Notes under the pieces: model-generated
The model's database searches: none
What the model was told of the DNA's origin: nothing
The model's input: only the letters and a program-made list of their open reading frames with translations
In this document: one piece after another, positions 20,554-28,078 of the stretch
Numbering within the stretch: the stretch's first letter is position 1
Layout of the letters: the number at the start of each line of letters is the position of its first letter
Program-made: the position numbers and the translations under genes
IMG/VR virus record: IMGVR_UViG_3300008459_000246
Location: 1 to 30,281 of that record
Origin: a virus
Length of the DNA stretch: 30,281 bases
Reading direction: 5' to 3' (one strand)

Positions 20554-20578
20554 AAAAACCCCCGGCACTTGGCCGGGG
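20552..20578 (-). terminator. intrinsic terminator closing the replication block
   Basis: A perfect 7-bp GC stem (20560-20566 with 20572-20578, loop of 5) is followed on the - strand by one G and seven Ts (complement of 20552-20558), a textbook rho-independent terminator for leftward transcription. It overlaps the stop codon of the rightward 1,946-aa gene. On the + strand no T-run follows, so it should not stop rightward transcription efficiently. Confidence 0.85.
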
Positions 20579-20607
20579 AAAGTCCTCGGAGAGAGGAGAA
20601 AGAAGAC

Positions 20608-25361: not shown

Positions 25362-25390
25362 AATTTAATTGTATCCACTACGCTAGTCAA
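25362..25390 (-). promoter_or_regulatory. putative sigma70-like promoter at the helicase/Gp157 junction
   Basis: On the - strand, TTGACT (25385-25390) is followed after 17 nt by TAAATT (25362-25367). The -35 overlaps the helicase stop codon. It would drive the Gp157-like, HTH, ssDNA-binding and primase-helicase genes. The -35 and -10 match consensus at 5/6 and 4/6 positions. Confidence 0.5.
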
Positions 25391-26921
25391 GCACTTCTTT
25401 GTAAAGATCAACAATTTTTGTGTGCGTATCAATTTTTGTATCTAACATTTTGTAAACATGTTTTTCTGCATTAGAACCTTGCAGACGAATGACTACTGAA
25501 GGATGTCGTTGACCCGGTCTATGCACTCGTGCATTAGCTTGTGCATACGTCTCTAGTGAACTAGTCGGCCCCCACCACACAACTGTGTCAGCAGCGGTTA
25601 ACGTAACACCATGTGCAGCAGACTGCGGTTGAATTACAAGGACGCGTGGCTCTGGTGTTTCTTGGAAGCGTTTAAATATGTCGGTACGTTTTGCTGCGGA
25701 TACATCACCACGAATGATTTCTGTACTTATACCGTCTTCTAATAACTTAGCAGTGATTAAATCAATCGCATGTTTAAACGGTACAAATACAAGTACCTTG
25801 TTGTTTGCTTCTGCGATTACTTCTTTCAACACAGCATAACGATTCTTAATATCGAATTCAATGATTTCTTTATTGTCTGCGTATACTGCACCGCAAGATA
25901 TTTGTAATAGCTTATTAAGATTGACTGCGGCATTCACGGAAGTTATTTCTTCTCCTGCTGCTTCCATGACCATACGGTTCTTCATCAACGTATAGTATTT
26001 CTGCTGTTGTTTAGTTAGCAGCACCTCACGGCTTACGTACGTCATCTCAGGTAAATCAAGGCACTCATCTTTGGTAAACCTGATAGCAGGTTGCAACGCA
26101 TTAAACACAGTCTGTAATGCGGTCGGTTTAGGTATCCACCTGAACTGCCCTACCTTGTACATCACCATGTCTTTAAACGACGTAGCAAACCGAGGCACTC
26201 CGCTAGGGTTAACCAGCTTGGCTAGGCCATACGCATCCATCGGCGACTGTGCAGCGGGTGTACCTGTCATCATCCACAGCCACGTATCGGGCTTCAACAA
26301 ACGGTTCAATGTCTTCCACCGTACGGTCTGCGCGTTCTTATACGCATTAGCTTCGTCAATAACGATTAGATCAAACCCACCTTCTAGGATCGCATCAGAT
26401 ACGATTTCAACACCGTCGTAGTTAATGATCACAAACTCAGCATGACCTTTTATTATCTCGCGTCTTTTTTCCGCCGCGCCATAGGCAATATCCACTGAAC
26501 GGTGCATAGCAAACTTAAACAAGTCAGCCCGCCATGCTGAGTCCATGATAGACAACGGACAAATTACCAACACGCGTTTGATCTTCTTTTGTTTCATCAA
26601 GTAATCAGCAGCCCATATCACGCTGCCTGTCTTACCTGTACCTTGTTCGTTCAAACAAAAGGCTCGTTTATGTAGCGTTAAGAACGACGAAGTAGTTTTC
26701 TGATGCTCGAACGGTTTGTGTAAGCCGGGCCAGTTGTACTGTGAAATGATCGGGCTAGGTACATTCCTGATCTTTAAATTCTTTAGTACTTGAGCTTCTT
26801 CTAAACCCCAGTGCACTAAGACTTTGCCGCCGCCTAGTGACTTACTCTTGGGTATAACTGTTGTGACCTTATTAGGGTCACGTAGTTGCAGTAGTAGTGC
26901 TTTGTTTTCTATTATTTCCAT
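25383..26921 (-). CDS. SNF2-type superfamily 2 helicase/translocase
   Basis: This 512-residue ATP-dependent DNA translocase or helicase has two RecA-like domains. Domain 1 has motif I N-E-Q-G-T-G-K-T at 91 to 98 (Lys97), motif II V-I-D-E-A-N at 187 to 192 (DEAN in place of DEAH), and motif III T-G-T-P-A at 219 to 223. Domain 2 has H-G-V-T-L at 437 to 441 and motif VI Q-A-N-A-R-V-H-R-P-G-Q at 461 to 471 with Arg465 and Arg468, a strong SNF2 signature. I chose the ATG at 26921. A GTG 54 nt upstream in frame would place the start inside a 13-bp hairpin. No Shine-Dalgarno is visible before the ATG. It lies between nuclease and ssDNA-binding genes, consistent with replication or recombination work. 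Confidence 0.88.
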   Translation of the reverse strand: MEIIENKALLLQLRDPNKVTTVIPKSKSLGGGKVLVHWGLEEAQVLKNLKIRNVPSPIISQYNWPGLHKPFEHQKTTSSFLTLHKRAFCLNEQGTGKTGSVIWAADYLMKQKKIKRVLVICPLSIMDSAWRADLFKFAMHRSVDIAYGAAEKRREIIKGHAEFVIINYDGVEIVSDAILEGGFDLIVIDEANAYKNAQTVRWKTLNRLLKPDTWLWMMTGTPAAQSPMDAYGLAKLVNPSGVPRFATSFKDMVMYKVGQFRWIPKPTALQTVFNALQPAIRFTKDECLDLPEMTYVSREVLLTKQQQKYYTLMKNRMVMEAAGEEITSVNAAVNLNKLLQISCGAVYADNKEIIEFDIKNRYAVLKEVIAEANNKVLVFVPFKHAIDLITAKLLEDGISTEIIRGDVSAAKRTDIFKRFQETPEPRVLVIQPQSAAHGVTLTAADTVVWWGPTSSLETYAQANARVHRPGQRHPSVVIRLQGSNAEKHVYKMLDTKIDTHTKIVDLYKEVLD

Positions 26922-26927
26922 AGCTTT

Positions 26928-26970
26928 AAAAAAAGAGGAATAGGCAGAACTGGGTGTCCAGTTCTGCCTA
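26928..26970 (-). terminator. perfect 13-bp hairpin plus T-run just before the helicase start
   Basis: The arms 26941-26953 and 26958-26970 (TAGGCAGAACTGG and its complement) pair perfectly around a 4-base loop. On the - strand the stem is followed by six bases and then seven Ts (complement of 26928-26934). The helicase ATG begins six bases after the T-run. It could terminate or attenuate leftward transcription, or control translation. The 6-nt gap before the T-run is longer than in a canonical terminator. Confidence 0.65.
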
Positions 26971-27046
26971 CACACAACGATAAATTAAGTGTTGATTCCC
27001 GCGTAGGTGCCGCGTGTCAACTGGTGCGGTTAGAGGGTTGAAATCG

Positions 27047-27088
27047 AAAAAACGCCCCCGGTTACTCACTCGCACCTTACAGTAACCG
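27047..27088 (-). terminator. second terminator-like hairpin in the helicase leader
   Basis: The arms 27059-27066 (CGGTTACT) and 27081-27088 (AGTAACCG) form an 8-bp stem with a 14-nt loop. On the - strand GGGGCG and then six Ts follow (complement of 27047-27052). It has the same stem, six bases, T-run layout as the hairpin at 26928-26970 and lies about 130 nt before the helicase start. Confidence 0.5.
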
Positions 27089-27129
27089 TATTAATTCGCA
27101 AGCAACCAAGAAGCAGCTTTGCAAACTCT

Positions 27130-27158
27130 AATTTATTCCTGAATCAAAACCACGTCAA
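27130..27158 (-). promoter_or_regulatory. putative sigma70-like promoter for the helicase
   Basis: On the - strand, TTGACG (27153-27158) is followed after 17 nt by TAAATT (27130-27135), starting just after the stop codon of the HNH-like gene. It has the same -10 hexamer and spacing as the candidate at 25362-25390. Transcription from it would give a leader of roughly 200 nt containing both hairpins. Confidence 0.5.
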
Positions 27159-27161
27159 CAA

Positions 27162-27410
27162 CTATTTAGCTTTTTTTTGCCCGTTACGCGCACGATTTTT
27201 TGATGGTGCTTCTAGGTAATACCCATCCTTGTTAGTACCACCTTTAGCTAACGCTTTAACGTGTGATACGTCTTTACCTGTACGGTCTACACCCTTCTTA
27301 TCCAACGCTCTACGTGCACGTTGCCGTTCCATGCGGTCAGGCGTTTCGCCTCGTTTCTCCTGCATGTCGTACTCGTGCTTGTACGGTCTTGGACTCTTTG
27401 TATATGGCAT
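27162..27410 (-). CDS. small HNH-like protein
   Basis: This is an 82-residue, very basic protein. The C-terminal half carries an HNH-like pattern: D47-V-S-H50, then L-A-K-G-G-T-N60, then L-E-A-P-S-K-N-R-A-R-N. It resembles the D-H...GG.N...N core of HNH nucleases but lacks the zinc-binding CxxC pairs, and the usual N-L is replaced by Y-L. It may be a minimal HNH nuclease or a DNA-binding derivative. The ATG at 27410 shares a base with the TAA of the upstream nuclease gene (TAATG) and has GGGAG upstream. A longer in-frame start at 27434 lies inside that gene and is less likely. Confidence 0.68.
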   Translation of the reverse strand: MPYTKSPRPYKHEYDMQEKRGETPDRMERQRARRALDKKGVDRTGKDVSHVKALAKGGTNKDGYYLEAPSKNRARNGQKKAK

Positions 27411-28078
27411 TATGATCTCCCGTTGTGTGAACAACTCAGTACCGAACAGTGCTTCCTACACAGGCCGCTCGGCTTTGGATTCCACACATCATTATCGTAC
27501 GCTATCTTAATTCTGTTATGCGACTTAACCCACTTAGACCACATTGCGTCTTGGTTTGCTACGTCGTACTTACCCTTAACAAACGCGTTACATACTACGA
27601 ACGCCAACCCACCCTTGACCTTCTTGATCTCAGGGAAGTGTTTGAAGATACATAATGCCATAAGTTCTAACTGGTCAGGGTCAGCATATTTAGCCGACTT
27701 GCCAGTTTTGTAATCAACAACCCTAGCCTCACCCTTCTCCCGGTCTAGGATCAACAAGTCAGCGATCCCCCTAAACCATACGTTGTCATCACGAAACCCA
27801 CAAGGCTGTAGGTCTTCCGTAATACCCATCTCATGCTCGCATAACTTCTCGCCGGGGATTTGCTTCAAATTATCAAGCACTGGTTTCGCAAAGGCAAACG
27901 CGGGGTCAATGGGTGTGCCATCTTTTATGTAGTTCTCCGCTGCCTCATGGAACCGTGTGCCGTACAGCATAGCGTCAGTCTCAGGCTCGACAATATCCTT
28001 TAACACCCTGAGATGAAAGTACTTGCGTGGGCACTGCTCAAACAACTTAATGCTGCTATACGACCACTTAATTGTCAT
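27410..28078 (-). CDS. Cas4/RecB-like PD-(D/E)XK nuclease
   Basis: This is a 222-residue nuclease of the Cas4/RecB/AddB group. Seen: C16-P-R-K-Y near the N-terminus, G-T-R-F-H44-E-A, G-I-A-D107-L-L, the D122-Y-K124-T-G-K catalytic strand, Q136 in Q-L-E-L-M-A-L, and a C-terminal Cys cluster C207-x3-C211-x4-C216. One N-terminal plus three C-terminal cysteines is the layout of the Fe-S cluster in Cas4 and AddB nucleases. It is predicted to be a DNA exonuclease or end-processing enzyme in phage replication and recombination. No CRISPR array or other Cas gene is present, so this is a replication-cluster homologue. It overlaps the upstream gene by four bases (ATGA). Confidence 0.87.
   Translation of the reverse strand: MTIKWSYSSIKLFEQCPRKYFHLRVLKDIVEPETDAMLYGTRFHEAAENYIKDGTPIDPAFAFAKPVLDNLKQIPGEKLCEHEMGITEDLQPCGFRDDNVWFRGIADLLILDREKGEARVVDYKTGKSAKYADPDQLELMALCIFKHFPEIKKVKGGLAFVVCNAFVKGKYDVANQDAMWSKWVKSHNRIKIAYDNDVWNPKPSGLCRKHCSVLSCSHNGRS

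Follow-up and report, generated by a model that had tools for sequence, protein, structure and literature searches.

A conserved pseudoknotted RNA ahead of a phage SNF2-family helicase gene, probably a new control element

The window, which is the whole stretch of DNA analysed here and a virus record of 30,281 bases, raises the question of what the leader in front of an SNF2-family helicase gene does. A sequence-only reading had placed a promoter and two terminator-like hairpins in this leader, each with a T-run six bases behind its stem, and had proposed that helicase expression is attenuated and needs antitermination, read-through or processing; the six-base gap was taken as a possible sign of a protein- or RNA-controlled element. 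The promoter, stems, T-runs and ATG all lie on the minus strand exactly where that reading had put them (Table 1).

The helicase is preceded by a small ORF, which we take to be HNH-like by motif alone, a PD-(D/E)XK exonuclease and a family A DNA polymerase. The RNA described below, which we call element A, sits among replication genes (polymerase, exonuclease, helicase and primase-like). A strong terminator-like hairpin with a run of seven Ts (T7), at 20559-20579 on the minus strand, lies where the structural and replication gene blocks converge. We lean towards the view that the region ahead of the helicase is the transcribed leader of a helicase operon. In this leader, AAAGCT stands between the T7 run and the helicase ATG at 26921, and no purine-rich Shine-Dalgarno sequence precedes that ATG; the helicase may thus depend on element A, on the pyrimidine-rich stretch behind hairpin B, or on coupling.

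Table 1. Positions of the features of the helicase leader and of the flanking genes in the window
Feature	Position	Strand	Detail
Small ORF upstream of the leader	27162..27434	-	PHROG 4590/6437, without Pfam match
Sigma-70-type promoter for the leader	27130..27158	-	TTGACG 27158-27153, 17-nt spacer, TAAATT 27135-27130
Element A, conserved structured RNA with pseudoknot, ~109 nt	26987..27095	-	Covariance model 96.5 bits; covariation
P1 hairpin of A (8-bp stem of the sequence-only reading)	27059..27088	-	27081-27088 with 27059-27066; strands CGGTTACT/AGTAACCG at 27088-27081/27066-27059; double changes at all 8 pairs in 22 sequences
P1 loop, 14 nt	27067-27080	-	GTAAGGTGCGAGTG
Pseudoknot 5' strand, in P1 loop	27071..27076	-	GGTGCG; partner 27023-27028
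T6 run	27052-27047	-	Six bases behind P1 stem
Pseudoknot 3' strand	27023..27028	-	CGCACC; covariation in 22 and 94 sequences
P4 hairpin of A	26991..27021	-	27017-27021 with 26991-26995; 27011-27013 with 27001-27003; double changes at 8/8 pairs
Hairpin B (13-bp stem of the sequence-only reading)	26941..26970	-	TAGGCAGAACTGG/CCAGTTCTGCCTA; loop ACAC
T7 run	26934-26928	-	Six bases behind B stem
SNF2-family helicase	25383..26921	-	PF00176 3.1e-20, PF00271 3.1e-16; phrog_62 DNA helicase 1.5e-103; next gene downstream of leader

Fold and covariation of element A

In many relatives of the window the loop GTAAGGTRYGRGTG recurs, although the stem enclosing it, P1, has a very different sequence. Downstream they carry AACYRYACCAG, whose YRYACC covaries with the GGTRYG of the loop, and the P1 loop pairs with this strand 43 nt away. 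The hairpin P4, with an asymmetric internal loop (CAC/GGGAA) and a terminal loop at 27004-27010, follows directly after the pseudoknot strand. Its terminal loop is pyrimidine-rich in relatives (mean 71%) and holds one of five motifs defined by eye in 68/76. RNAalifold recovers P1 and P4 unaided, and a plain RNA fold of 26922-27124, which does not include the pseudoknot, gives z = -2.6.

To quantify the covariation, we used a 22-sequence alignment covering P1 (8 bp), the pseudoknot (6 bp) and P4 (5+3 bp), hand-chosen before the covariance model existed from sequences among the 38 that are positive by it. In this alignment 97.9% of 480 cells are paired, and the percentage paired, the double-change cells and the covariation score were matched by 0/500 shuffles. 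Double changes fall at 18 of the 22 pairs, a count that 7/500 shuffles matched, and shifting the partner by 1-3 columns abolishes the covariation. All cells of the pseudoknot are paired (100%), with double changes at two of its six pairs, a one-sided change at one and three pairs invariant. Fourteen columns of the alignment are invariant, and unpaired letters are conserved in the P1 loop and in the internal loop of P4.

The second alignment consists of 98 model-aligned hits, 94 of them distinct. It is biased to P1 and P4, but the model did not contain the pseudoknot, and the both-halves search pattern had N at the two middle pairs of the pseudoknot that vary. Here 96.4% of 2060 cells are paired, with 678 double changes compared to 206 in shuffles. 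The covariation score is 0.857, against 0.247 in shuffled and at most 0.095 in slid alignments, and was matched by 0/500 shuffles; the count of 18 double-change pairs was matched by 44/500. Since related sequences inflate all per-sequence counts, we give cluster counts beside them (A clustered at 75% identity, 53 clusters). The compensatory changes in the helices thus exceed both shuffled and slid controls, and element A is, on this comparative evidence, a conserved structured RNA, unlike chance hairpins. G-U and U-G pairs fill 166 cells, summed over the 94-sequence set; because the opposite strand would have A-C mismatches at these places, A is read in the direction of the helicase.

Two further pairings were tried and rejected. 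As an anti-Shine-Dalgarno sequence, the P4 loop scored -5.50 kcal/mol with its matched partner compared to -5.60 with permuted ones, and 1299/2000 permutations were as good. A pairing of the P1 loop with the P4 loop (AGGTGC with GCACCT), striking in the window itself, fails in L003 and L004, where the P1 loop is altered and only the pseudoknot strand follows.

Against Rfam 15, no family passes the gathering cut-off, either in the window or among 20 loci of relatives (19 with A, one without). A permissive search of the window leader gave sub-threshold matches to McaS (17.0 bits against a cut-off of 42) and rli40 (14.4 against 100). ARAGORN finds no tRNA or tmRNA in A; the one tRNA-Asn that it reports, in L069, lies outside A and upstream of the leader. 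A search of titles and abstract openings in the open-access literature returned no description of the element.

Distribution and gene context

A protein search for the helicase yielded 446 helicase-encoding places in viral contigs, the best 80 of which were kept. The covariance model R1 is positive in 38 of the 81 sources of this first set (the 80 best relatives plus the window), all with E below 1e-12. Element A is its sole significant match in the window, which is itself one of the 22 training sequences. The remaining 43/80 relatives have no model match; a few of these loci start inside the leader, and some relatives lacking A have no leader gap at all. We therefore regard A as dispensable. 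L009 and L011 form a natural presence/absence pair: both helicases are 85% identical to that of the window, and A is present in L009 and absent from the 60.9-kb contig of L011.

Searches that ignored the gene widened this set. A pattern for both halves of the element found at least 120 viral stretches, and among those listed the model recognises A in 94, with E below 1e-4 (L028, 64/79 and 29/40). A pattern for the 3' half found 77 stretches, of which 67 are A: 28 were already known, all positive, and 39 of the 49 new ones are positive. Manual comparison of contig names showed that 13 of 169 loci duplicate a contig; without these, A stands on at least 157 contigs, the window and 156 others, including L258, which is near-identical to the window and carries the same element (96.5 bits). 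Whole-contig searches of 29 records, some of which may be partial contigs, found one copy in each of 23 and none in six. All carriers seen are uncultured phages. Among bacterial genome contigs a stricter pattern gave a single match, L202, which proved false (16 bits, no helicase beside it). A blastn search of 50,697 named-phage records with the window element, an insensitive method for RNA, found none, and the model found no match at four named-phage loci with the closest helicases inspected (37.5-42.0% identity), whose annotated helicases are preceded by at most 41 nt.

Context was checked for 107 hits (the window and 22 helicase-derived loci, 83 pattern-derived loci and the false L202). The helicase is downstream in 23/23 of the first group by construction, a biased count, and is the longest downstream ORF in 81/83 of the pattern-derived hits; it lies directly downstream in 39/39 of the new loci from the 3'-half pattern. 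The L095 locus stops at the helicase start codon, and in the whole contig the helicase lies 72 nt on. In L135, small ORFs fill the 1.5 kb between A and the helicase, and L096, L111 and L139 have a gap of about 290 nt with an apparent small ORF, judged by eye. These loci suggest that A is the leader of an operon rather than of the helicase alone. Comparison between genomes thus establishes how A folds, that it is conserved, which strand carries it, that each contig searched has no more than one copy and that it lies before the helicase.

The distance from A to the start codon could be computed for 92 of the 98 hits, leaving out L036, L033, L029 and L008, which were not in the input, and L135 and L095, which end too early. 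It is 46-77 nt in 78/92, 14-16 nt in six and at least 100 nt in eight; in the window A ends 65 nt ahead of the start codon. In the 14-16-nt leaders that were read through (L031, L047 and L059; L043 and L046 are repeats of L031), a TTGGAGAATGG-like stretch leads from P4 to the start codon, and hairpin B is absent.

Several side observations concern the helicases and the more divergent leaders. The helicase ORFs L089:267-3602 (1112 aa) and L137:918-3383 (822 aa) carry an insert. That of L089 is probably an intein, with Hint_2 passing the Pfam cut-off; the Pfam search of the L137 helicase gave no Hint match. The helicase ORFs of L184, L214 and L216 have an insert too, and the helicase matches of L137, L184, L214 and L216 break at residues 343-346. 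Leaders such as L123, L136, L093 and L156 have one more hairpin, 0-6 nt behind A, whose loop is CGUAA or GAAAGA; it is found in 33/88 distinct loci compared to 75/1050 controls by a loop list drawn up after seeing examples; no such hairpin was found in the window's clade. L024, L039 and L060 have long leaders without A that are apparently structured differently.

The promoter, hairpin B and the T-runs

We scored as a promoter any match of at least 9/12 within 100 nt upstream of A, in a scan that covered sigma-70 sites only. By itself the match in the window is unremarkable, with nine such sites in 10.3 kb compared to 15.2 expected in shuffles. Its place is conserved, however: a match stands upstream of A in 36/85 distinct upstream regions, against 5.1% of 3400 random places. 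The proportion is 26/31, window included, where the helicase is at least 75% identical to that of the window and 10/54 where identity is lower. The promoter is thus, by sequence comparison, conserved among close relatives and mostly not among distant ones, and the leader with its promoter that had been proposed for the window is real in this sense. Where the promoter is seen, its end lies ~3 to 44 nt ahead of A. Element A is retained in 49/85 upstream regions without a 9/12 match. Three of the six loci with A 14-16 nt from the start codon (L031, L088 and L152) are promoter-positive through a weaker site, TTATCA-16-AATAAT.

Both stems that the sequence-only reading took for terminators are kept in relatives with changed sequence, and so pass the check proposed with that reading, but their T-runs fare differently. 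P1 is in a covarying pseudoknot, and in the window's own cluster of four L003, L004 and L006 keep P1 without a T-run, so that the first hairpin is not supported as a terminator. Six Ts in a row occur within 20 nt behind P1 in 2/94 distinct elements (the window and L090), and also in the near-identical L258. A looser T-rich stretch is found behind P1 in 33/94 compared to 158/2090 controls and in 16/53 clusters; in some other clades P1 may pause or stop transcription there.

Hairpin B presents a different picture. Among the 15 terminator-like sites that a scan of 10.3 kb gave, none has a longer stem. B-like hairpins (at least 9 pairs, -12 kcal/mol or better) occur in 43 of the 70 distinct leaders with 50-160 nt from A to the start codon compared to 52/1050 control segments, although B was chosen by folding and its pairing is thus partly circular. 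A U-rich tail, meaning at least 5 U in an 8-nt stretch behind the stem, follows in 30/43 compared to 179/2090 control places (8.6%), and at least 6 U in 9/43 compared to 42/2090. These tails are counted from 9 nt behind the loop and the folded stem often includes them; a stricter count starting after the last folded pair gives 10/43. A run of at least five Ts follows in 2/43, and the T6-T7 runs belong to the window and L176. When the 53 clusters are sorted by the state that prevails in each, 15 have B with a U-rich tail, 11 have B without a tail, 21 have no B by the strict test and six have another state. B is also present in leaders without A, with a U-rich tail in some and not in others. Of the two proposed terminators, then, the second may stand as a weak one and the first is not supported. 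The symmetry of stem, six bases and T-run is, judged against relatives, half accident: the first T-run is new in the window sequence, whereas the second elaborates a U-rich tail common to relatives.

These leaders have other features as well. The loops of B are often ACA, ACAC, GAGA, AGACC or NTAACC, in leaders with or without A, as if the loop were read. In L011, L012, L014 and L015 a tRNA-like element, read by eye, takes the place of A between the promoter and hairpin B, and in L013 and L016 one lies behind B. It has a 7-bp acceptor stem, D-arm-like and T-arm hairpins and hardly any anticodon arm, and both strands of its acceptor stem differ between L011 and L012. ARAGORN does not recognise it as a tRNA, and its best Rfam match on its strand is to mascRNA at 16.9 bits (L012), below the cut-off. 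L017:2401-2472 gives a sub-threshold match to tRNA-Sec (25.9 bits against a cut-off of 47), and the L201 leader has, by eye, a T-arm-like hairpin in another long insert, without Rfam match.

Possible functions of element A

We favour a reading in which A acts in cis on the helicase operon, after transcription has started, and sets the amount of helicase; the comparisons make this fairly likely. A is kept in 49/85 upstream regions without a promoter match, and also without B, as would be expected of a segment of the mRNA more than of an independent RNA gene. Its fixed place ahead of the helicase could reflect mere common descent, which weakens the case for action in cis. The protein- or RNA-controlled element to which the six-base gap had been taken to point becomes the best reading, whereas attenuation of the helicase with a need for antitermination is an unneeded assumption, as A lies 14-16 nt before the start codon in six relatives with no B between.

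How A would act is suggested by analogy. The gene 32 leader pseudoknot of T4, T2 and RB69 is an autogenous translational operator, gene 32 encoding the single-strand DNA binding protein. Element A, likewise a pseudoknot in the mRNA leader of a phage replication gene some 65 nt before the start, would similarly be bound by a protein, either of the phage or of its host. Unlike the T4 pseudoknot, A precedes an SNF2 helicase rather than a single-strand binding protein and has an extra covarying hairpin, P4. The T4-type pseudoknot binds the replication protein and lies 67 nt upstream of the start in T4 (PMC3014915). We hold the protein-operator reading tentatively, as the most probable of the mechanisms considered, though one that falls short of likely. 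Control would be exerted on translation or mRNA decay in leaders where A abuts the start codon, and possibly on termination at B in those where a U-rich tail follows B.

Among the alternatives, A could be a separate, stable small RNA acting in trans, with its own promoter and an end made at B or by processing, the helicase being expressed by read-through. The order of promoter, A and B in the close clade would suit this, as would the U-rich tails of B (30/43 compared to 179/2090) and the tRNA-like element that L011, L012, L014 and L015 hold in the slot of A, as though the slot accepted other RNA units. Yet 44/54 distant relatives have no 9/12 promoter match before A, in six relatives A stands 14-16 nt ahead of the start codon and B is missing, only 15/53 clusters mostly have B with a U-rich tail, and A precedes the helicase wherever context was seen; we think a trans-acting RNA unlikely. 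Somewhat less likely still is transcription attenuation in which, with the first terminator dropped, B is the intrinsic terminator and A, through a protein, a ligand or the ribosome, decides on passage. The close clade has promoter, A, B and start codon in the order this needs, and B resembles intrinsic terminators in its strong 13-bp stem, its T7 in the window and the U-rich tails of relatives. However, we saw no sequence able to pair alternatively with A and B, B occurs in leaders without A and A without B in six relatives, and the tails are mostly interrupted. Two successive intrinsic terminators, as first proposed, are highly improbable. Both stems and T-runs are present in the window and in L258, and a T-rich stretch follows P1 more often than in controls, but P1 is half of a covarying pseudoknot with a 14-nt loop, the six-T run behind it is rare and absent from the other members of its own clade, and both T-runs of the window begin six bases behind their stems, unlike those of intrinsic terminators.

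A small-molecule riboswitch or self-cleaving ribozyme in the helicase leader, a reading that overlaps with action in cis, is doubtful. The compact pseudoknot, the 14 invariant columns and the conservation of unpaired bases within the P1 loop and the internal loop of P4 speak for it, as do the CGUAA- or GAAAGA-loop hairpins that divergent clades add behind A (33/88 compared to 75/1050), whereas no Rfam family matches and the gene suggests no metabolite. The put RNA of phage HK022 suppresses termination through the zinc-binding domain of the RNA polymerase beta-prime subunit. The phage has two put sites behind two early promoters, each of ~70 nt and two stem-loops (PMC9378689). Like putL and putR, A is a folded leader RNA near a sigma-70 promoter and, in the close clade, ahead of a terminator-like hairpin, and it might load on RNA polymerase and suppress termination; unlike them, it has a pseudoknot and another size and is kept without promoter or terminator, and we consider this very unlikely. 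An HK022-like pair of sites was rejected, A having a single copy per contig searched. Its place among the polymerase, exonuclease, helicase and primase-like genes would also suit an RNA that primes or marks an origin of replication, but 43/80 helicase relatives have no A, and there is very little to recommend this idea.

Taken together, these observations describe a pseudoknot that covaries strongly, occurs on over 150 contigs, goes with a single replication gene and has no match in Rfam; it probably represents a new element that controls this phage gene. It is conceivable, if on the unlikely side, that A forms a functional RNA class of its own, whether it senses a ligand, is catalytic or serves as a dedicated protein operator, with the GUAAGGURYGRGUG loop pseudoknot and P4 as its defining features. 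The alignment, the covariance model and the presence/absence pairs make the role of A directly testable. If A is a new class, it would be one seen only in a single large group of uncultured phages, where it would time or dose the replication helicase.
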